This document shows, one piece after another, positions 3,661 to 16,026 of a stretch of 16,034 bases of DNA. The position numbers and the translations under genes are program-made. The stretch is from assembly GCA_001004085.1 (NCBI GenBank), contig LCQJ01000012.1, forward strand, positions 1-16,034. The letters run 5' to 3'. Numbering within the stretch: position 1 is the first letter of the stretch; each line of letters starts with the position of its first letter. The notes beneath the pieces are model-generated. The model ran no database searches. It saw nothing but the letters and a program-made list of their open reading frames with translations, and had not been told where the DNA came from. This DNA comes from Parcubacteria group bacterium GW2011_GWA2_50_10b (GTDB lineage Bacteria > Patescibacteriota > Minisyncoccia > Phycocordibacterales > Zambryskibacteraceae).

Positions 3661-3685
3661 CAAAACAAAAAGCGTGAGAACGCTT
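3661..3685 (-). promoter_or_regulatory. Leader hairpin with U-run upstream of rpsS (attenuator-like)
   Basis: On the minus strand AAGCGT (3685-3680) pairs with ACGCTT (3675-3670) across a TCTC loop and is followed by TTTGTTTTG. It lies between the predicted transcription start (about 3688) and the rpsS ATG at 3647. The shape is that of a short intrinsic terminator, so it could attenuate the operon. The stem is only 6 bp. Confidence 0.5.
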
Positions 3686-3694
3686 GTGGCAAAT

Positions 3695-3723
3695 ATAGTA
3701 TAGAAAACAAGGGTATAAGTCAA
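3695..3723 (-). promoter_or_regulatory. Promoter of the rpsS-rplV-rpsC operon
   Basis: TTGACT (3723-3718) and TACTAT (3700-3695) are spaced by 17 nt on the minus strand, five of six consensus bases in each. The predicted start is near 3688, giving a leader of about 40 nt before rpsS. It follows directly after the terminator at 3736-3772. Confidence 0.7.
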
Positions 3724-3735
3724 CGTTCCGTCACA

Positions 3736-3772
3736 TTAGCAAAAAGCCGCCCTACAGGCGGCTTTTTGCTAA
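3736..3772 (-). terminator. Intrinsic terminator after the TM-helix gene
   Basis: A perfect 16-bp stem (TTAGCAAAAAGCCGCC, 3736-3751, with its complement at 3757-3772) closes a five-base loop. The GC-rich top with flanking A and T runs makes it functional in both directions. On the minus strand it follows the stop of the gene at 3803 and precedes the rpsS promoter, insulating the two units. Confidence 0.85.
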
Positions 3773-3802
3773 TCAAGAGTATTATCTAGCTAATACCTTG
3801 TA

Positions 3803-4495
3803 TTACTGGTTTTTGCCGCTCATGTCGGCGCGCAGGCGCTCGAGGAAGCGAGCAGCCTGTTCCTGGCCTCCAAGGCCGAAGGAAAGGCCGAGAGCCAAAG
3901 AAATAGCGACCACAATGCCGGTAAAGAGAGTCTGGCTGAAGGCCGTAGCAATCCCGAGCTGAGAAAGCGCGACCAGGATACCGAAGACCCAGACCGCCCA
4001 TTTGGCGACTGCGCCGGCGAAGTGCGCGGAGCGTACTCCGGCGCTCTTGGCTGCCGTAACCACTACCCTCTCGATGACATCGCCGATAACGCCAGCCACC
4101 AGGATGACCAAAGCGCCGACAATGACCCTAGGAAGGTAAGCAAGCACGACTTCCTGCAGGAACAGATTGACCTGGGAAAGACCCAAGACGTCAAAGGCTG
4201 CCACCAGGAAAATGACGATGACGAACCATTTGACCAGGCCGCCGATGAAGGCACCGGAATCAAGGTTCATGCCACCGCGACGCACTACCGATTCGAAGCC
4301 CGCGTGACGCAGAGCCTCATCTACCTTAAGAGACCTGAACACCTGTGCGATAGCGCGGCCCAAGAGAGCCCCAACGAGCCATCCGAGGATGAGGATGACC
4401 AACGCGATAACAAGGTTCGGGACGAAATTAACCACACCCACCCAGAGATTCTGGAAGGAAAGGGTCAATACTTCTCCCCATGTATTTAATAACAT
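3803..4495 (-). CDS. MscS-related conserved TM-helix membrane protein
   Basis: The 230-residue integral membrane protein has about five hydrophobic segments (roughly residues 22-46, 84-105, 118-140, 162-182 and 187-208). The GLSFGLGGQEQAARFLE motif near the C-terminus is typical of the conserved TM-helix repeat family (Pfam TM_helix type) related to small-conductance mechanosensitive channels. Two similar units appear: Gly/Ala-rich helix, amphipathic linker, helix. The cytoplasmic beta domain of MscS is absent, so channel activity is not established. It has its own promoter (TATAAT at 4545-4550) and a terminator. Nothing in its surroundings links it functionally to the ribosome, and its place between rplL and rpsS looks like an insertion. 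Confidence 0.85.
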   Translation of the reverse strand: MLLNTWGEVLTLSFQNLWVGVVNFVPNLVIALVILILGWLVGALLGRAIAQVFRSLKVDEALRHAGFESVVRRGGMNLDSGAFIGGLVKWFVIVIFLVAAFDVLGLSQVNLFLQEVVLAYLPRVIVGALVILVAGVIGDVIERVVVTAAKSAGVRSAHFAGAVAKWAVWVFGILVALSQLGIATAFSQTLFTGIVVAISLALGLSFGLGGQEQAARFLERLRADMSGKNQ

Positions 4496-4544
4496 ATGTT
4501 CTTAACTGAATACTGTTAAATACCACTTTTAAGGGTATGCGCTT

Positions 4545-4573
4545 ATTATACACCTAAAAATAAAGGTGTTTTA
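4545..4573 (-). promoter_or_regulatory. Promoter candidate for the TM-helix gene
   Basis: A consensus TATAAT (4550-4545) on the minus strand lies about 43 nt upstream of the ATG, after the predicted start. The -35 is weak (a TTAAAA-like box 18 nt upstream, overlapping the stop of the regulator gene). A 6-bp inverted repeat (ACACCT at 4550-4555, AGGTGT at 4564-4569) spans the spacer and could be an operator or a weak terminator. Confidence 0.5.
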
Positions 4574-5158
4574 AGATGTGTGGATAGCTGGTTTCATCTC
4601 CAAACCCAGTTTATTGAAGATTTTCTTGTGCTGGGAGTCGAGAATATCCCTGATGAGCTTGTCGTAAATGCCCATCCGGTACTGGAAATCGCCGGTTTCA
4701 AAGACCGCGTAGCGCAACTCCTTACCGAGTTCGGCCTCGATGGTACTCATGACGGTATGGAGCTTCCCCTGCTTGATATGGTCCCCTACTATGAGAATAT
4801 CGACCCTGGAATCAGGGTTATGGAGGAAAATGCCCGAGATAAGAATCAGTTTGACGTTGCCGGAGACACTTATTTTCTTGACGATTTCCTTCTCGGAGAG
4901 TGGGTTGGCGTCGATGAGGAAGTTGCCGATGGCCGGCAGGTAGCGGTAAGCCCTGTTGAGCATATAACCTTTACCGCGCTTCTTGATGAGCCCGGCCTTG
5001 GCGAGAATTGCGAGTTCGCGGCGGGCGACATTGGGATTGGTCTTGGCGCGGGAAGCCACTTCGGAGGAGGTGAAAGCTAAAGTGGGGTTGAAAATGAAAA
5101 GGCGCATGATTTTTACCTTGGCTTCTCCGCCGAATATGTGAGAAACGGATTTTGACAT
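4571..5158 (-). CDS. Winged-helix regulator with degenerate nucleotidyltransferase-like domain
   Basis: Residues 1-75 form a winged helix-turn-helix (EAKVKIMRLFIFNP, then FTSSEVASRAKTNPNVARRELAILAKAGLIKKRGKGYML), a DNA-binding fold. Residues about 100-170 resemble the minimal nucleotidyltransferase fold, with a hydrophobic strand, a loop and a second strand (LILISGIFLHNPDSRVDILIVGD). The usual GS...DxD signature is degraded (SG, then RVD), so catalysis is doubtful. Proteins of this two-domain type occur in Parcubacteria; the target is unknown. It is transcribed singly from a leaderless-type promoter set in the rplL terminator. Its place just after rplJ-rplL makes stalk-gene or self regulation possible, but that is inference. 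Confidence 0.75.
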   Translation of the reverse strand: MSKSVSHIFGGEAKVKIMRLFIFNPTLAFTSSEVASRAKTNPNVARRELAILAKAGLIKKRGKGYMLNRAYRYLPAIGNFLIDANPLSEKEIVKKISVSGNVKLILISGIFLHNPDSRVDILIVGDHIKQGKLHTVMSTIEAELGKELRYAVFETGDFQYRMGIYDKLIRDILDSQHKKIFNKLGLEMKPAIHTS

Positions 5159-5164
5159 GCCCGT

Positions 5165-5192
5165 ATTGTACCCCCAAACAAAAACCGCGCAA
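5165..5192 (-). promoter_or_regulatory. Leaderless-type promoter of the winged-helix gene
   Basis: TACAAT (5170-5165) on the minus strand is followed by exactly six bases (ACGGGC) and then the ATG at 5158, so transcription should start at or next to the A of AUG. A partial -35 (TTGCGC, 5192-5187) is 16 nt upstream, inside the rplL terminator stem. No Shine-Dalgarno sequence is present, consistent with a leaderless mRNA. Confidence 0.55.
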
Positions 5193-5209
5193 TCGCGCGG
5201 TTTTTGTTT
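5176..5209 (-). terminator. Intrinsic terminator after rplL
   Basis: A perfect 15-bp stem (5176-5190 with 5195-5209) closes an AATC loop, with a CCGCGC top and A/T-rich base. It starts 17 nt after the rplL stop and reads as a terminator in both directions. It also contains the -35 region of the next gene. Confidence 0.88.
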
Positions 5210-5226
5210 TCGATTCCTCTGCGGGA

Positions 5227-5619
5227 TTACTTAAGAGTAACTTTTCCTCCTGCATCCTCAATAGACTTCTTGAGAGCCTGGGCTTCTTCCTTCTTCATGT
5301 CCTGCTTGAGCATGCTTGGGGCGGCGTCCACGAGGTCCTTGGCTTCTTTGAGGCCGAGTCCCAGGACTTCCTTGACCACCTTGATGACGGCAATCTTGTT
5401 GGCTCCGCCGTCTGTCAGTTCAACATTGGCAGTAGCCTTCTCTTCTTCGGCGGGGCCGGCGGCTACGGCCGGACCGGCGGCTACGGCGGTGGCGGAGACT
5501 CCGAACTTTTCTTCGAAGACCTTGACCAGCTCGTTCAATTCAAGGACCGACATGTTCTCGACTTCCTCGACAATTTTCTTGAACTTGGCGGGCACTTCCA
5601 CGTTTTTTGTTTCTTCCAT
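5227..5619 (-). CDS. rplL: Large ribosomal subunit stalk protein bL12 (L7/L12)
   Basis: bL12 dimers on L10 form the mobile stalk that recruits EF-Tu, EF-G and other translational GTPases. The 130-residue product has the N-terminal dimerisation helices ([29 protein letters not shown]), an Ala/Gly/Pro hinge with a duplicated unit ([12 protein letters not shown]) and the C-terminal factor-binding domain ([28 protein letters not shown], ending GGKVTLK). It is intact, unlike rplJ just upstream, from which 17 nt separate it. The rplJ-rplL pair normally follows rplK-rplA near rpoB, so its position inside the S10 operon is unusual. It ends at a strong terminator. Confidence 0.96.
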
Positions 5620-5636
5620 GTTATTTTTGGTTTTGA

Positions 5637-5861
5637 TTAATTTTTCGCCTTGGCGACTTCACTCATTGCTATGGCCATGCGCTGAATCGGCGAATTGATG
5701 ATGTTGACGAACTTGCCCCTAAGAACCTGAAGGCTCGGAATCATGGCCAATTCGAGAATTTCGGCCTGGCTCATGTAGCGGCCGGCAAAGACTCCACCGA
5801 GAATCTTTAAATTCTCAGGGAACTTTTTCTGAAAGGAATGCACTTCCTGTGTATGAGACAC
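5637..5861 (-). CDS. rplJ: uL10, C-terminal part (frameshifted from the N-terminal part)
   Basis: This frame encodes the C-terminal half of L10: [25 protein letters not shown], then the [32 protein letters not shown] helix region that anchors L7/L12 dimers. It is in a different frame from the N-terminal fragment at 5815-6006, with which it overlaps by 47 nt. The GTG at 5861 is only a possible start; the natural protein would begin at 6006. The block between the fragments, normally about 40 residues including the VAKKTL motif and a region of the rRNA-binding domain, is missing from both frames. Either rplJ is damaged or the assembly is wrong here, because an essential stalk base protein is expected. 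Confidence 0.7.
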
Positions 5862-6006
5862 CTTCGTTCTTCAGAGCTTGGCGCATCTGGGTGGTGTTGC
5901 CTACGGAGAGACCCTTGAAGTTCACGAACACCAGAGACTTGGCGCTTTTGAACGCTTGCTCTAGTTTCGCCACTACTTCGCTTTTCTTCTGCTTTGATAC
6001 AGCCAT
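5815..6006 (-). CDS. rplJ: uL10, N-terminal part (truncated by frameshift)
   Basis: Residues 1-53 ([50 protein letters not shown]) match the N-terminal domain of L10, which binds the stalk base of 23S rRNA beside L11. After SYT the family would continue with VAKKTL. Here the frame reads [11 protein letters not shown] and stops at a TGA, while L10 resumes in another frame as EVHSFQKKF. The apparent junction falls at about 5848, between two small inverted repeats. No Shine-Dalgarno sequence precedes the ATG, and the 338-nt region upstream is hairpin-rich. Confidence 0.75.
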   Translation of the reverse strand: MAVSKQKKSEVVAKLEQAFKSAKSLVFVNFKGLSVGNTTQMRQALKNEGVSYTGSAFLSEKVP

Positions 6007-6155
6007 AGAATAAGTTTGCAGCTTTCAACTGTTAGCTAGTAATGCACACATATAAGGAAAGAGAGATGGTGATCTCGGTGAGACTTCTGGGTTTCTGTAA
6101 GCTGTAAGCTACAAGCTGCCCTGCTCACTGTCTTTGACCTTACGGGAGATACTTT

Positions 6156-6199
6156 ACCCCCACACCTACTTTTTTGCAAGAAAAAGTAGGTGTGGGGGT
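6156..6199. repeat. Perfect 19-bp inverted repeat, 6-nt loop
   Basis: ACCCCCACACCTACTTTTT (6156-6174) pairs exactly with 6181-6199 across the loop tgcaag. There is no long U-run on the exit side in the rplJ direction, so it is not a standard terminator. It lies about 150 nt upstream of the rplJ start. Confidence 0.85.
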
Positions 6200-6233
6200 T
6201 TACAGAAACTAAAAATAAAATCAAGTATGCAAA

Positions 6234-6257
6234 AAGGAGAGGCTCGAGCCTCTCCTT
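6234..6257 (-). terminator. 24-nt perfect palindrome with U5 tract
   Basis: A perfect palindrome with 12-bp arms centred on CTCGAG is followed on the minus strand by five T's (6235-6231, partly overlapping the arm) and GCATAC. Together with the TATAAT at 6298-6293 it would delimit a transcript of only about 55 nt, or act as a second terminator after rplB. Confidence 0.65.
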
Positions 6258-6307
6258 GCCTTCCTCCTTTCCCGGGTGAGCCAATTCTCATGATTATACA
6301 TAAAAGC

Positions 6308-7203: not shown

Positions 7204-8034
7204 CTAAATCACTTCGATCTTATCGCCCTTCTTCAGATAGACATAAGCCTTGCGACCGCCCTTTTTGACACCCATTTTGCCGCGCACGAAGACCTTGCGG
7301 GCCGGAATACCGGCCACCCGAACCTTGACCGGCCTGACCTTGTAAGACTGGTGGACAGAATCAGCAATGGACTTTTTGGTCGCGCCCTTGGCCACTTCGA
7401 AAACGTAGACGTTGGATTTGTCCGCACCCAAAGCAGCCTTCTCGGTGATGCGAGGGCCTCTGAGTCGCGCTTCTACCACTTCGACGTTGCCCAGGTTCTG
7501 GAAAGCGCGCTCGGTTTCTTTGTTCTTGGTTGAAAGAGCAATAGCTACGGCGTTATTTTTTTTGCTGAAGATGTATTCGAAGCCTTTGATTCCTGAAAGT
7601 GAGTTGAGGGTACCGATAGCAATCTTGGTCTTCGGCTCTGTAAGAGCAATTGAATCGACGAAGAGTACTTCCCCTTCGCGGTACTTTTGAGAAAGTAAAG
7701 TGTGTAGAGCCTTGGCACGCATGTTTTTGGTTACCGTGCGTTCAAAATTCTTCTCCTTTCTCGGACCATGAGTGACACCGCCTCCAACCCAGATAGGAGA
7801 GCGGATGGAACCGTGTCGCGCACGGCCGGTGCCCTTCTGCTGCCAAGGTTTCTTGCCGCCGCCGCGCACTTCGCCACGATTCTTGGTATGAGCGACCGGC
7901 TTTCTCTTCGAAGAAAGAAGCGAGTCGGCTACCTGTTTGACCAGGTCGGCGTTCCAGCGCACGCCAAAGACACTTTCCGGAAGAGTGACCTTACCGACCG
8001 ACTTACCTGTCTGATTGTAGACTTGAGTTTCCAT
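7204..8034 (-). CDS. rplD-rplW: Fused large-subunit proteins uL4-uL23
   Basis: One 276-residue frame carries L4 and then L23. Residues 1-190 are L4, including the tunnel-loop block [35 protein letters not shown] and the [14 protein letters not shown] strand. At residue 191 the sequence switches to L23 ([51 protein letters not shown]). The last 20-25 residues of L4 (the usual LTxxAL..LEE helix) and the variable N-terminus of L23 are absent, with no stop or start at the junction (about 7465). L4 helps form the tunnel constriction and L23 the tunnel-exit docking site. The frame is clean, so the fusion could be real, or a junction deletion in the assembly could have joined two genes. Confidence 0.9.
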
Positions 8035-8127: not shown

Positions 8128-8580
8128 TCATTTAGACTTTACTTCCAGAAGTGTCCCCTTGCGTCCGGGAAGGGCGCCGCGGATGAAGATCTCCTTGGAT
8201 TCCGGCAGGACTTTGATGACGCGCAAGTTCTTGACCGTCACGCGCTCATGACCCATGCGGCCGGCCATGCGCATGCCCTTCACAACGCGTCCACCGGCCC
8301 GGCCGCCACCGCCGATGGAACCGGCTTCCCTCTCGGAATGCTTCTGGCCGTGGGAGCGCCTGCCTCCCTGAAACTTATGGCGCTTGACCACTCCCTGGAA
8401 GCCCTTGCCCTTCGAGAGGCCGGAGACCGTAACCATATCGCCTTCCAAGGGGAGGGCTTGGGAATCAGTATCCAAGCCCTCCCCTTGGTTCTGTGCTACG
8501 ACGAGAGTGACAGGAAAGACTTCCCCGCTCTCGTCGAAGATCTGCGTCATATTCACTTTCTTGGCGATAATCTTTTTCAT
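8128..8580 (-). CDS. rplC: Large ribosomal subunit protein uL3, internally shortened
   Basis: uL3 initiates 50S assembly and sends a loop to the peptidyl-transferase centre. The N-terminus (KKVNMTQIFDESGEVFPVTLV) and the functional C-terminal half (VSGLSKGKGFQGVVKRHKFQ, GSIGGGGRAGGRVVKGMRMA, MGHERVTVKNLRVI, IRGALPG) are clear. The product is only 150 residues against about 205-210: between residue 30 and the SKGKGF motif it has about 57 fewer residues than E. coli L3, so much of the N-terminal barrel is missing. The remaining linker (residues 31-46) is encoded by a perfect 17-bp inverted repeat (8445-8488). The frame is intact and ends at the window's only TGA among full-length genes. The ATG abuts a leader hairpin at 8581-8664, and there is no Shine-Dalgarno sequence. 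Confidence 0.92.
   Translation of the reverse strand: MKKIIAKKVNMTQIFDESGEVFPVTLVVAQNQGEGLDTDSQALPLEGDMVTVSGLSKGKGFQGVVKRHKFQGGRRSHGQKHSEREAGSIGGGGRAGGRVVKGMRMAGRMGHERVTVKNLRVIKVLPESKEIFIRGALPGRKGTLLEVKSK
8445..8488. repeat. Perfect 17-bp inverted repeat inside rplC
   Basis: CCAAGGGGAGGGCTTGG (8445-8461) and its exact complement (8472-8488) flank a 10-nt spacer. The structure encodes L3 residues 31-46 and sits exactly where about 57 residues of the normal protein are missing. In mRNA it would be an exceptionally stable coding-region hairpin. Confidence 0.92.
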
Positions 8581-8664
8581 CCCGTTAGAAGTTACTTTGT
8601 TTTGGTGTTGTGGTCAATCCACCCGCTAAAGTCTATATGGTTAGACTTCTAACGGGATTCATGG
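8581..8664 (-). promoter_or_regulatory. Structured leader of rplC: CCCGTTAGAAGT hairpin abutting the AUG
   Basis: In the sense RNA the unit CCCGUUAGAAGUCUA (8656-8642) can pair in two ways. It pairs with a local copy, UAGACUUUAGCGGG (8635-8622), across a 6-nt loop with one bulge and one G-U, or with ACUUCUAACGGG (8592-8581), 12 perfect bp directly abutting the AUG at 8580. The element starts 1 nt after the rpsJ stop. A sister element precedes the protease gene (15944-16016). The mutually exclusive pairings suggest control of translation start, which is inference. Confidence 0.65.
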
Positions 8665-9066
8665 CTAGATCAATTTCACGTCGATGTTTACTCCCGAAGG
8701 CAGCGACATGTTGGTCAGAGCCTCGATGACTTTACCGGAAGGATTGACTATATCGATGAGACGCTTGTGGATCCGCATCTCGAACTGTTCTCGCGCATTC
8801 TTGTATACGAACGCCGCGCGGTTCACCGTATAGATTTTCTTTTCGGTCGGCAGAGGTATCGGTCCCTCCACCTTCGCGTCATAGCGCAGGGCGGTGTCGA
8901 TGATTTGCTTGACCGAAAGGTCGAGAATCTTCGACTCGTAGGCCCTGACTCTGATGCGCAGCCTTGAAGACACCTCTTCAGCAGAAGCTTTTCTGGCTCC
9001 GGCGCGTTTGGTGGCCGGAGCTCCGGCCTTGTGCCGGGGCTTTTTGGAAGAAGCAGCTTTAGGCAT
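8665..9066 (-). CDS. rpsJ: Small ribosomal subunit protein uS10 with basic N-terminal extension
   Basis: uS10 is part of the 30S head and, as NusE, also a partner of NusB and NusG in antitermination. The canonical protein starts around residue 34 (SRLRIRVRAYESKILDLSVKQI) and is complete (GPIPLPTEKKIYTV, REQFEMRIHKRLIDIVNPSGKVIEALTNMSLPSGVNIDVKL). Upstream of it is an Ala/Lys/Arg-rich, low-complexity extension of about 33 residues. The ATG at 9066 is used because it lies 4 nt after the tuf stop; an internal start would leave a long gap in an otherwise tight operon. Basic tails of this kind on ribosomal proteins are usually disordered rRNA-binding segments. Confidence 0.95.
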   Translation of the reverse strand: MPKAASSKKPRHKAGAPATKRAGARKASAEEVSSRLRIRVRAYESKILDLSVKQIIDTALRYDAKVEGPIPLPTEKKIYTVNRAAFVYKNAREQFEMRIHKRLIDIVNPSGKVIEALTNMSLPSGVNIDVKLI

Positions 9067-9070
9067 ATGA

Positions 9071-10264
9071 TTACTTGATAACCTTGGTTACCACTCCGGC
9101 TCCGACGGTCTTGCCTCCCTCGCGAATAGCGAAGCGCTGCTCCTGTTCCAGAGCAATCGGCGAAACCAGTTTGACAGTGAAGGTCGCGGTGTCGCCGGGC
9201 ATAACCATCTCGACGCCTTCGTTTAAGGTAACCTCGCCGGTAACGTCAGTGGTGCGGATGTAGAACTGCGGCTTGTAACCGGTAAAGAACGGAGTGTGTC
9301 GCCCGCCTTCCTCCTTCTTGAGGATGTAGACTTCGGCGGTGAACTCGGTGTGAGGAGTGACAGAACCCGGCTTGGCAAGCACCTGGCCGCGGTGAAGATC
9401 TTCCTTCTTGACGCCTCGGAGGAGGACGCCGGCGTTGTCTCCGGCTTGGCCGTCCTGCAAAGATTTGTTGAACATCTCAATACCCGTGACCGTAGTCTTT
9501 GAAGTATCTTTGATACCAACGATTTCCACTTCTTCGCCGACCTTAACTCGGCCTCTTTCGATACGACCGGTCACCACGGTGCCACGGCCTTCAATCGAGA
9601 AGATGTCCTCGATAGGCATGAGGAACGGTTTGTCGAGGTCGCGGACCGGAATCGGGAAGTAGGTGTCGAGAGCGTCGGTCAGAGCCAAAATCTGCTTGGA
9701 CCATTCGTCGTCGATACCAGTAGCTTCGAGAGCCTTGAGGGCCGAACCCTGGATAATCGGGGCATTGGCGCCGTCGTATTCGTACTTCTTGAGGAGGTCT
9801 CTGACTTCCTCTTCAACGAGACCGATGAGCTCCTTGTCGGGAACCATGTCGCACTTGTTGAGAAAAACGATGATTTTCGGCACACCAACCTGCTTGGCGA
9901 GGAGGATGTGTTCACGGGTCTGGGGCATCACGCCGTCAGTGGCCGCTACCACCAGTATTGCGCCGTCCATCTGAGCGGCGCCGGTAATCATGTTCTTAAT
10001 GTAGTCAGCGTGACCGGGAGCGTCGACGTGCGCGTAGTGGCGGGTGTCGGTCTCGTATTCCGAGTGGGAAAGGGCGATAGTAATACCGCGGGCCCTTTCC
10101 TCTGGAGAGTTGTCAATCTGGTCGACGTTCTTGACGGTCGCCTTCTTGCCCGCGCGGTGAAGCACGTTCAAAATAGCTGCCGTGAGAGTGGTCTTGCCGT
10201 GGTCAACGTGGCCGATAGTGCCTACGTTGATGTGCGGCTTGGAACGATCAAATTCTGCTGCCAT
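9071..10264 (-). CDS. tuf: Elongation factor Tu
   Basis: EF-Tu is the GTPase that delivers aminoacyl-tRNA to the ribosomal A site. The 397-residue length is canonical. G1 is GHVDHGKT at residues 18-25, the switch I RGITI block is at 59-63, G3 DAPGH is at 81-85, and NKCD and GSALKALE follow. Domain 2 ([15 protein letters not shown]) and domain 3 ([33 protein letters not shown]) are complete. The frame is open 47 codons further upstream, but that part is leader RNA, so the ATG at 10264 ([19 protein letters not shown]) is used. It has its own promoter (10418-10446) and a leader of about 147 nt with overlapping hairpins. Confidence 0.98.
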
Positions 10265-13389: not shown

Positions 13390-13869
13390 TTAAGGCTTTT
13401 TACCGTAAATGCCTGGGTGGATTTTTGCCAGTTGTTCTCGAGCATCAGCTAAGAAAGATTCTGTTTCTTGCTCATCCTTAGTCATTTCTCTTTTTCTCTG
13501 CAAACCGCTATTGGGAGAGCTTTTTACCGCTTTGATAAATGAATTTAGAAGCTTCGAGCATTCTTCTGCGTTATTCTTTAAATATTGAAATGTTTGAATA
13601 TTTAAATATCCAATATCAGATGCGGCATAGAGCTGGGCGCGCACTTCCCCGGCAGAGCCCTTGGCGATATAAAGATAATTGACAAATGAATCGCGCGTAC
13701 CGCTTTCAAAACCTTCGGAAATATTACTCATTATCGATACGCTCGCTCTCTGTATCTGATCGGTGAAACCGTAGTCTTTGCAATTTCGAAAGCTTCTATA
13801 AATCTCCGATGTGAGCTCGCGAGATTTCTTCCAACAGACGAGATCTTCGAATCTTTGCACCGTTGCCAT
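13390..13869 (-). CDS. Four-helix-bundle protein (IVP / S23-like)
   Basis: The N-terminal 120 residues fit the family first described as open frames in 23S rRNA intervening sequences: FEDLVCWKKSRELTSEIYRS, a DQIQRASVSIMSNISEGFE helix, then FVNYLYIAKGSAGEVRAQLYAA. These proteins form a four-helix bundle that assembles into pentamers and carries a basic patch; a nucleic-acid role is suspected but unproven. Here the gene stands alone, not in an rRNA. The C-terminal 40 residues (SGLQRKREMTKDEQETESFL...) are charged and less conserved. The ATG at 13869 is supported by a -10 box (TAGAAT, 13881-13876) six bases upstream, implying leaderless mRNA. Confidence 0.88.
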   Translation of the reverse strand: MATVQRFEDLVCWKKSRELTSEIYRSFRNCKDYGFTDQIQRASVSIMSNISEGFESGTRDSFVNYLYIAKGSAGEVRAQLYAASDIGYLNIQTFQYLKNNAEECSKLLNSFIKAVKSSPNSGLQRKREMTKDEQETESFLADAREQLAKIHPGIYGKKP

Positions 13870-13973
13870 GCAACAATTCTAACACTATTTAAACATTCAA
13901 AGATTTAAATATTTAAGGATGGAAAACCAGACACAATATCTGGGCTACTTTAAATCTTCAAATATTGAAATGT
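13870..13973. repeat. AT-rich spacer with repeated ATTTAAA/ATTCAAA units
   Basis: Units such as TTTAAACATTCAAAGATTTAAA at the left and a related inverted set (TTTAAATCTTCAAATATTG) at the right flank a central GC-richer segment (13918-13946). The two ends can pair imperfectly. The same wording recurs inside the neighbouring coding sequence at about 13578-13610 (TTTAAATATTGAAATGTTTG). Confidence 0.55.
13876..13884 (-). promoter_or_regulatory. Leaderless-type promoter of the four-helix-bundle gene
   Basis: TGTTAGAAT on the minus strand is an extended -10 (TGn plus TAGAAT). It is followed by six bases (TGTTGC) and the ATG at 13869. No good -35 is visible, as expected for an extended -10 promoter. 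Confidence 0.5.
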
Positions 13974-14312
13974 TTAAATCTCTCTCTTTATTCGATTTTT
14001 GTACAAACGATTATTGTGCAGAAGACTAAAAACATAAAGAATAATAACGATAAGAGGTATACCCAACGATAGTAAATTAACTAAAATAGTCGCCTTAAGA
14101 TACTTAAGCTTTACAATTGGCCCTGCATCGTAATAACAGGACAAAATCTCTCCAGATGCTTTGCTTCCGTGACACTCAAGAGGTTTCTGAAAAATGAAAC
14201 TTACCAATTGATCATGGTAAAAAAGAATCAAAATAACATAAGCCAGTATTAATAAGGCTCCTAAAAAAACTGGAGTTGAGAAATATCTCTTTCTAATAAA
14301 AATCTTGTTTAT
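13974..14312 (-). CDS. Two-helix membrane protein, unknown function, probable non-standard start
   Basis: I do not recognise the family. With the first canonical start (TTG at 14231) the product is 85 residues with one membrane helix. The frame stays open back to 14312, and those 27 codons encode a basic N-terminus plus a full membrane helix (IRKRYFSTPVFLGALLILAY), so the real protein is probably 112 residues. The loop between helices has two Cys (LECHGSKASGEILSC), possibly a disulphide outside the membrane. The second helix is about LLSLGIPLIVIILYVFSLL, with a basic tail. At 14312 the codon is ATA, exactly six bases after an extended -10. The gene is much more AT-rich than its neighbours, consistent with acquisition. 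Confidence 0.65.
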   Translation of the reverse strand: MNKIFIRKRYFSTPVFLGALLILAYVILILFYHDQLVSFIFQKPLECHGSKASGEILSCYYDAGPIVKLKYLKATILVNLLSLGIPLIVIILYVFSLLHNNRLYKNRIKREI

Positions 14313-15325: not shown

Positions 15326-15943
15326 CTAGGGAGTGAGGCCGGTAATAAGCCTGAAGGCGAAAACGGCCAGCGGGAAAATGAACTGCCAGAGGAAAAAGAC
15401 CAGGAAAAGCACCAGTATCAGACCGTAACGCTCGAAAAAAGCCCTGAAACCGAGCATTTTCTCCGGGAAAAGGGCGAAAAGGAGCTTCGAGCCGTCCAAA
15501 GGCGGGATGGGCATGAGGTTAAAGACCGCCAAAATGAGGTTGATGAAGACGATGACGGCCGTAATTTGGACGAAAGCCGGACTGACCCACCCGGCCGAGG
15601 CCCCAAAGCGAAGCAAAAGCCCGAAAATCAAAGCGAGCGAGATGTTGGAAAGCGGGCCGGCCCCGGCCACTATCGCCTCCGACCAGCGGCCGGGGCGCAG
15701 ATTGTAGGGATTGTAAGGCACGGGCTTGGCCCAGCCGATGATAAAGCCGCCCAAAAGATATGAAATGGTCGGCACCAATATCGAGCCGACAAAGTCCAAG
15801 TGTTTGACGGGATTAAGGGTCAGCCTGCCCTGGTAGCGGGCTGTCTGGTCGCCCAAAAGGCTGGCGGCATAGCCGTGGGAAACCTCGTGAATGACGATGG
15901 ACATGATGAGCACGGCTATCTGGAAGAAGAAATCGAGCGACAT
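15326..15943 (-). CDS. Site-2-protease family (M50) membrane metalloprotease
   Basis: M50-family intramembrane zinc proteases cut substrates within the membrane, often in regulated signalling. The 205-residue protein has the HExxH zinc motif in a first hydrophobic segment (VIHEVSHGYAASLLGD; HEVSH at 19-23) and the second motif NLMPIPPLDGSKLLF (142-156), whose Asp completes the zinc site in the family. About five or six hydrophobic segments are present. There is no PDZ domain, so it belongs to the compact type common in small genomes; its substrate is unknown. It ends 60 nt before rpsL. The ATG abuts a leader hairpin like that of rplC. Confidence 0.93.
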   Translation of the reverse strand: MSLDFFFQIAVLIMSIVIHEVSHGYAASLLGDQTARYQGRLTLNPVKHLDFVGSILVPTISYLLGGFIIGWAKPVPYNPYNLRPGRWSEAIVAGAGPLSNISLALIFGLLLRFGASAGWVSPAFVQITAVIVFINLILAVFNLMPIPPLDGSKLLFALFPEKMLGFRAFFERYGLILVLFLVFFLWQFIFPLAVFAFRLITGLTP

Positions 15944-16016
15944 CCCATTAGAAAGTTTAAATTTATAAGGTTTTTAGGCATTTTAGGTTCCGTTGAACTT
16001 CTAACGGGACTCGTGG
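15944..16016 (-). promoter_or_regulatory. Structured leader of the M50 protease: second copy of the rplC-type element
   Basis: In the sense RNA CCCGUUAGAAGUU (16008-15996) pairs with AACUUUCUAAUGGG (15957-15944), 13 bp with one G-U and one bulge; the 3' arm directly abuts the AUG at 15943. The 24 nt at the 5' end (16016-15993) match those of the rplC leader (8664-8641) at 20 positions, and all four differences are transitions. G-C at one position in rplC corresponds to G-U here, so pairing is kept. Confidence 0.65.
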
Positions 16017-16020
16017 ACGG

Positions 16021-16026
16021 ATTATA
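16021..16026 (-). promoter_or_regulatory. -10 box upstream of the M50 protease leader
   Basis: A perfect TATAAT (16026-16021) on the minus strand. Its start would fall near 16014, at the very 5' end of the leader element; the -35 lies outside the window. Confidence 0.5.

Follow-up and report, generated by a model that had tools for sequence, protein, structure and literature searches.

A short palindrome at the start codon of rplC in a Parcubacteria genome is most likely an inserted mobile element

The stretch of DNA analysed here (the window) comprises 16,034 nucleotides of contig LCQJ01000012.1 of Parcubacteria group bacterium GW2011_GWA2_50_10b. On its minus strand, rpsJ (ribosomal protein S10, Pfam PF00338, positions 8665-9066) precedes rplC (ribosomal protein L3, 150 aa, PF00297, positions 8128-8580), and the mRNA-sense sequence across the junction reads, in order, the rpsJ stop TAG, CC, ATGAAT, CCCGTTAGAAGT, a variable part, ACTTCTAACGGG and ATGAAA. 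Three related units had been proposed between the two genes, and all were located on the minus strand: CCCGTTAGAA at 8656-8647, the intermediate unit TAGACTTTAGCGGG at 8635-8622, and TTCTAACGGG at 8590-8581, immediately 5' of the rplC ATG (8580-8578). Read as one putative mobile element, the palindrome covers 8580-8657, that is 78 nt including an outer T/A pair, with CCCGTTAGAAGT and ACTTCTAACGGG as arms that are common to 20 other sites of the genome. The A of the present start codon (8578-8580) is read as the last base of this element. On either side we recognised the two copies of a putative target-site duplication, the TGAA of an upstream ATGAA (8658-8661) and the TGAA in codons 1-2 of the present rplC (8576-8579). 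The upstream ATG (8660-8662), which would be the original start codon, stands 2 nt past the rpsJ stop TAG and opens a leader frame, M-N-P-V-R-S-L-T-I-stop (8633-8662), that meets UAG at codon 10 and ends 52 nt before rplC; past this UAG the frame is otherwise open as far as a UAA (by eye).

The rest of the window has some peculiarities of its own. L4 and L23 are apparently fused in one ORF at 7204-8034 (Pfam L4 16-189, L23 192-274), and the order of the S10 cluster is unusual, with rplL, a mechanosensitive-channel-like gene and an HTH gene between rplB and rpsS (3663-6284; rpsS recognised by eye). Two ORFs upstream of rplL (5815-6006 and 5637-5861) resemble, by eye, a frameshift-broken L10 gene. 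Between fusA and rpsG (both by eye), positions 13390-14000 hold a gene for a 23S rRNA intervening-sequence-type protein (PF05635) and AT-rich repeats. The contig starts with a perfect 26-bp inverted repeat with a 4-nt loop (1-56), either a terminator or an assembly end.

The window gave no Rfam match at gathering score. With a minimum free energy of -27.8 kcal/mol, the rplC leader RNA folds far better than 300 dinucleotide-shuffled controls (z = -4.9). This fold includes the pairing of the 5' unit with the far arm, named in the original prediction, and two bases of the AUG, the A and the U, belong to its stem. That the 5' unit could pair instead with the near arm (8622-8635), in a mutually exclusive manner, was also correct on paper, but the near pairing is weak: the fold forced to contain it reached -18.5 kcal/mol, 9.3 kcal/mol worse, and its CCCG/CGGG end had a base-pair probability of 0.00 in the free ensemble.

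The same palindrome recurs throughout the genome. The exact CCCGTTAGAA occurred 26 times in 384 kb, versus 2 for the reversed control, and allowing one mismatch revealed a second form, CCCATTAGAA, that makes inverted pairs with the first. The consensus of the element is [Y]CCCRTTAGAA-variable-TTCTAAYGGG[R]. We counted copies only when both arms, CCC(A/G)TTAGAA and TTCTAA(C/T)GGG, were present, so that decayed copies are missed, and copies shorter than 40 or 50 nt (some of 25-48 nt exist) were excluded from several counts. This genome, 78% complete, holds 21 distinct full-armed copies, 17 of them with an exact 4-bp direct repeat next to the outermost base pair. Sixteen adjoin, with offset zero, a start codon that opens an ORF of 60 codons or more; one further copy adjoins rpmJ (38 aa, full Pfam match from residue 1), another precedes an ATT that opens an M24-peptidase frame (Pfam), two precede shorter ORFs (40 and 44 codons) that Pfam did not match, and one lies at no start codon. 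By comparison, 185 of 19,914 TNNR sites (0.9%) lie at a first start codon in the stretches around the exact matches, from which these copies were extracted; for 16 of 21 copies this gives a binomial probability of 6e-29 that is a rough guide only, sites being treated as independent. A family of hairpins abutting start codons with a 0-nt offset, which the original prediction had anticipated, is thus the general rule in this genome.

Pfam named 16 of the 20 scanned proteins downstream of these copies: L9, two PBPs, pyrophosphatase, IF-1, S5, M24 peptidase, NDK, a thioredoxin-fold protein, TypA, L36, RNase III, an FAD oxidase, SOD, M50 and L3. The M50 gene is the one next to the second region singled out beforehand (15944-16016), which indeed holds another copy, at 15943-16009 on the minus strand, adjoining the start codon ATG of the peptidase. 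Its left flank is ACGAGT, without a matching duplication, and a -10-like TATAAT lies nearby at 16021-16026 (by eye). Two 76-nt copies at separate sites of the window's genome are identical, and genome G127 has three identical 100-nt copies (L206:5786, 6287 and 7273) inside 1.6 kb, each preceding GTAAAT.

We then considered start-codon copies from several genomes, in sets (63 and 30 copies) that include genomes picked for high copy number, with a duplication defined here, as in the frame and in-ORF counts below, by at least 3 of 4 matching bases. Sixty-three copies had a duplication and a start codon on the left, and they follow the pattern A-TGNR-[Y CCCR..YGGG R]-TGNR-N, in which the last base of the element is the first base of the present start codon. 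The left codon was ATG in 62 of the 63, the right one ATG in 46 and GTG in 17, and the latter followed the outer pair of the element in every case (63/63), T..A giving ATG and C..G giving GTG. As the left codon is nearly invariant and the right one depends on the outer pair, the left copy is best read as the old start codon. The 82 extra nucleotides at rplC resemble such an insertion, with a TGAA duplication. The remaining 30 of 93 start-codon copies lacked the duplicated-ATG pattern; the M50 copy (15943-16014, flank ACGAGT) belongs to this class. Ten of the 30 (L005, L008, L020, L029, L031, L032, L066, L068, L081 and L088) share a left flank AC(C/T)TGT and have no duplication; in RNA, its UGU could pair with the AUG (by eye).

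Comparison with relatives also points to an insertion. Among 28 relatives of the family having both genes, the exact left arm was absent between rpsJ and rplC in 27, and some of these junctions have the tight spacing expected of an empty site (TAA-CC-ATG in L235, TAA-ATG in L255); in five relatives (L250-L254, including G012) the gap is 133-358 nt, and a copy with a mutated left arm would escape there. The 28th relative, G012, from another genus of the family, has a decayed copy of the ACTTGT type (L253:1099-1206) that ends at the rplC start. Since this copy is differently flanked, the rplC start codon was probably struck at least twice, independently.

The original prediction linked similar repeats to Parcubacteria, which was right but too narrow, as the element recurs across bacterial phyla. 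Matches to the pattern were found in 77 of 285 genomes of the window's class and in 16 of 31 genomes of its family. Among the matches listed, a non-random and incomplete sample, 80 of 117 genome-contig loci had full arms, and full-armed copies came from Planctomycetota/Phycisphaerae, Nitrospirae, Deltaproteobacteria, Syntrophaceae, Omnitrophica, WOR-3, KSB1 and many Patescibacteria. Copies lay at start codons in 24/46 cases in Patescibacteria, among the matches listed, and few did so in other named phyla (5/31); the figure for unnamed bacteria was 3/10. Requiring a short upstream extension in addition to the start codon gave, again among the matches listed, 22/46 in Patescibacteria versus 3/31 in other named phyla (Fisher p = 0.00045), and 3/10 in unnamed bacteria.

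Each arm is a 10-mer of almost fixed sequence; one covarying pair lies outside it and two inside. The bases of the outer pair were complementary in 118 of 121 copies. Among 193 distinct elements, 184 and 181 had Watson-Crick matches at the two inner pairs, where column make-up predicts 99 and 100. Further inward, pairing at the two following positions was at chance (62 and 51 of 193; 58 and 50 expected), whereas positions 5 and 9 exhibited a partial excess (74 and 71 of 193 versus 49 and 48), suggesting that some interiors carry structure of their own. In L161-L168 and others, the middle of GC-rich copies reads as further hairpins whose sequence varies and whose inner repeats look complementary (by eye). 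As the variable arm positions covary, which double-stranded ends would not require, we infer a folded hairpin as the form in which the element is mobilised or through which it is copied. In the sense RNA of the 16 start-codon copies of this genome, the fourth pair was A.C in 8, G.U in 5 and G-C in 3, so that strict RNA pairing is not maintained.

We next asked how the reading frame that starts at the old ATG fares within the 63 copies. It was open through the element in 41, whereas shuffling the dinucleotides of the interior predicts 16.3 (z 8.0). Only 4 copies were open in the +1 frame (3.8 expected) and 23 in the antisense (18.1 expected), and the third frame always has a stop in the arm. 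The unweighted figure is inflated by relatedness; weighting by sequence cluster gave 18.0/31 versus 8.4 (z 4.3) and weighting by record 17.7/31 versus 9.5 (z 3.5). Start-codon copies without duplication were open no more often than by chance (10/28 versus 8.3). Intergenic copies, read on both strands, also had an excess (78/152 versus 58.8, z 3.7), so that part of the signal may stem from composition or ancestry. The excess at start codons sits in copies with lengths not divisible by 3: in one out-of-frame length class 17 of 23 were open (4.2 expected), ending UAA-CGGG-RUG, and in the other 15 of 21 (5.0 expected), 14 of these ending in AUGA. In-frame copies exhibited little excess (9/19 versus 6.3). 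The frame was closed in 22 of the 63, the rplC copy included.

Copies inside genes were delimited by removing the element and one duplication and looking, on all strands and frames, for a restored ORF of 60 codons or more to each side, which takes in a few start-codon copies. Among 22 such copies with duplication, 18 had a length that is a multiple of 3 and 16 were open, reading mostly PVRS..TSNG or PLEV..LLTG and close variants; by comparison, 54 of the 144 copies without such restored ORFs were multiples of 3. Twelve more copies in long ORFs (9 multiples of 3) have no duplication and stand outside the 22. The copies inside genes thus appear to be translated, in a manner that resembles the in-frame insertion of Rickettsia palindromic elements.

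A different arrangement was observed in tRNA genes. At several loci a complete tRNA gene lies between copies or near-copies of the arms, within the apparent anticodon loop of another tRNA gene and without target duplication: L188:1263-1365, L191:1199-1305, L200:1508-1615, L202:1271-1376 and L222:1233-1339, together with L181 (minus strand, arm CCCGTTACAA), L257 and L273 (minus strands). The flanks are mostly CYYG..TRAA or its reverse complement. With the element removed, ARAGORN called a host tRNA in 7 of the 8 loci and none in L200. In G127, rated 100% complete, ARAGORN found 45 tRNAs in the stretches around 45 RF00005 matches (L201-L222, L180, L257-L294); tRNA-Asn(GTT) was absent from those 45 stretches, and no nested host resembles it (by eye).

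No autonomous long copy with these ends was recognised in the loci scanned. Of the transposase families, Y1 (discussed below) and DDE_Tnp_1 were looked for in carrier genomes, and neither tracks the element. DDE_Tnp_1 was present in 1 of 7 carrier genomes and was rejected as mobiliser. Arm pairs 130-5000 nt apart with matching flanks (five in one scan, four in another) are read as neighbouring short copies. Carriage by phages was likewise rejected, as full arms were found, among the matches listed, in 4 of 120 viral-contig loci versus the 80 of 117 genome-contig loci, and most of the viral-contig matches are likely chance.

How does the element compare with known systems? Bacterial MITEs are described, in the review PMC10969869, as short, dispersed copies with terminal inverted repeats and a target duplication. 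The present element is likewise short, with terminal inverted repeats and a 4-bp target duplication, dispersed and apparently mobile (empty sites, identical copies), but no parent transposase was found among the Y1 and DDE_Tnp_1 families searched, its variable end positions covary, its interiors are hardly conserved and most copies in this genome lie at start codons. According to the same review, Rickettsia palindromic elements (RPE) are palindromic repeats inserted in frame into protein genes and translated. The in-frame, open insertions in ORFs are alike at the level of description; in contrast to RPE, the element occurs in many phyla and has a start-codon mode with a proposed out-of-frame hand-over. 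REPINs/BIMEs, associated with RAYT, have two inverted conserved ends, a variable middle and a hairpin; the element has all three, but it differs in its target duplication and in the lack of co-occurrence with Y1_Tnp. Integron attC sites are folded, with conserved ends and a variable interior, in the order RYYYAAC..GTTRRRY. Here the order is inverted (GTTAGAA..TTCTAAC), as seen in the rplC and M50 copies for a family that was searched in that order only, and the copies are dispersed rather than arrayed. In termination-reinitiation coupling, a stop codon lies at or overlaps the next start; the stop/start arrangement is the same here, except that it would be brought by a mobile element.

Several other explanations have to be weighed. 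In a cis-acting translation switch at rplC, the 5' arm would hide the AUG by pairing with the far arm and free it by pairing with the near one. Both pairings do exist on paper, the far stem includes the A and U of the AUG and the fold is strong, yet the near fold is far weaker, the device is unconserved at orthologous genes (the exact left arm is missing from rplC in 27 of 28 relatives), and the 82 extra nucleotides look inserted. In addition, out of 9 sister copies 76-79 nt long, only 3 or 4 retain the GGG of the near arm (by eye), half of the 16 start-codon copies of this genome have an A.C mismatch in the sense far stem, and few copies in named phyla other than Patescibacteria lie at start codons. 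We thus consider this switch, the central proposal of the original prediction, very improbable. An intron-like element removed from RNA, whose presence at a start codon or in the anticodon loop of a tRNA would be silent, would be in line with the eight tRNA-carrying loci and with the host tRNAs recovered upon removal in seven of them. On the other hand, these cases lack a duplication, no boundary common to the tRNA hosts yields a single clear anticodon, L200 has no host call, and the copies in ORFs keep to the reading frame, a constraint that splicing would render superfluous and that argues against RNA removal; this explanation appears just as improbable.

The inverted conserved ends, the variable interior and the three Y1_Tnp genes of this genome would fit mobilisation of a REPIN-type element by a RAYT (Y1) transposase. 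Within the family, however, Y1_Tnp and the element occur independently of each other: the pattern is absent from G017, which carries 7 Y1 genes, and present in G004, G005 and G008, in which Y1 was not found. Y1 is also missing from three of five high-copy genomes (96-100% complete). The RAYT of C9 moreover has a different inverted repeat, and we regard this origin as the least probable of those considered. (At L009:8200-8920, a RAYT-type Y1 gene lies between its own, different inverted repeat, CCACTTGGCGGT..) More weight is due to a targeting of transcription starts, in which insertion would prefer open promoters, start codons would be struck as many genes are leaderless, and the element may then supply a promoter. 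Of the 63 copies, 18 have a -10-like hexamer at leaderless spacing 5' of the old ATG (3.3 in shuffles) and only 4 have a Shine-Dalgarno-like motif (a count without shuffle control); AT-rich interiors contain TATAAT-like stretches (by eye). But 45 of the 63 have no such -10, and rplC lies directly behind rpsJ, with no promoter-like site found on the gene strand in a scan of 8500-9100; we consider such targeting unlikely, although clearly less so than the three preceding explanations.

We conclude that the rplC hairpin is most likely a short mobile element inserted precisely into the start codon of the gene. The insertion at rplC is well supported by sequence comparison, namely by the inverted arms, the TGAA duplication, the junctions without it in relatives, the sister copies at other starts and the outer base that forms the first base of the new codon. 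Among the papers listed by searches of the open-licence literature, none dealt with this element. We suggest that the old upstream ATG still takes the initiating ribosome, by a leaderless start or by coupling from the preceding gene, and that this ribosome would read through the element, unfolding the hairpin. It would then either stop at UAA-CGGG-RUG or AUGA and restart on the gene, or continue in frame into it, and insertion into a start codon could thereby be survived in every reading frame. Hand-over of the ribosome from leader to gene is likely, judging from the open frames, and the rplC copy is no clean example of it. Since UAG at codon 10 interrupts its leader, expression of rplC would probably depend on less efficient re-initiation and should be lowered. 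Taken together, the best explanation, and in our opinion quite a probable one, is that a MITE-like palindrome recently entered the start codon of rplC, with leader hand-over. The wider scheme, in which a palindrome enters start codons, overwrites their first base and moves as a folded hairpin, while the old start translates a leader that hands the ribosome over in any frame with neutral effect on expression, is more tentative, and we would put it somewhat below an even chance.

The case also cautions that a leader hairpin from one genome can pass for a riboregulator. If the proposed reading is true, usually essential genes of a reduced genome (L3, S5, IF-1, L36) bear a mobile element at their first codon and presumably keep their function despite it, which would provide a natural experiment on the passage of ribosomes from leader to gene. 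It would also explain some odd start codons (ATG to GTG) and N-termini in the annotations of Patescibacteria, and it would point to a transposition machinery that may read a hairpin.
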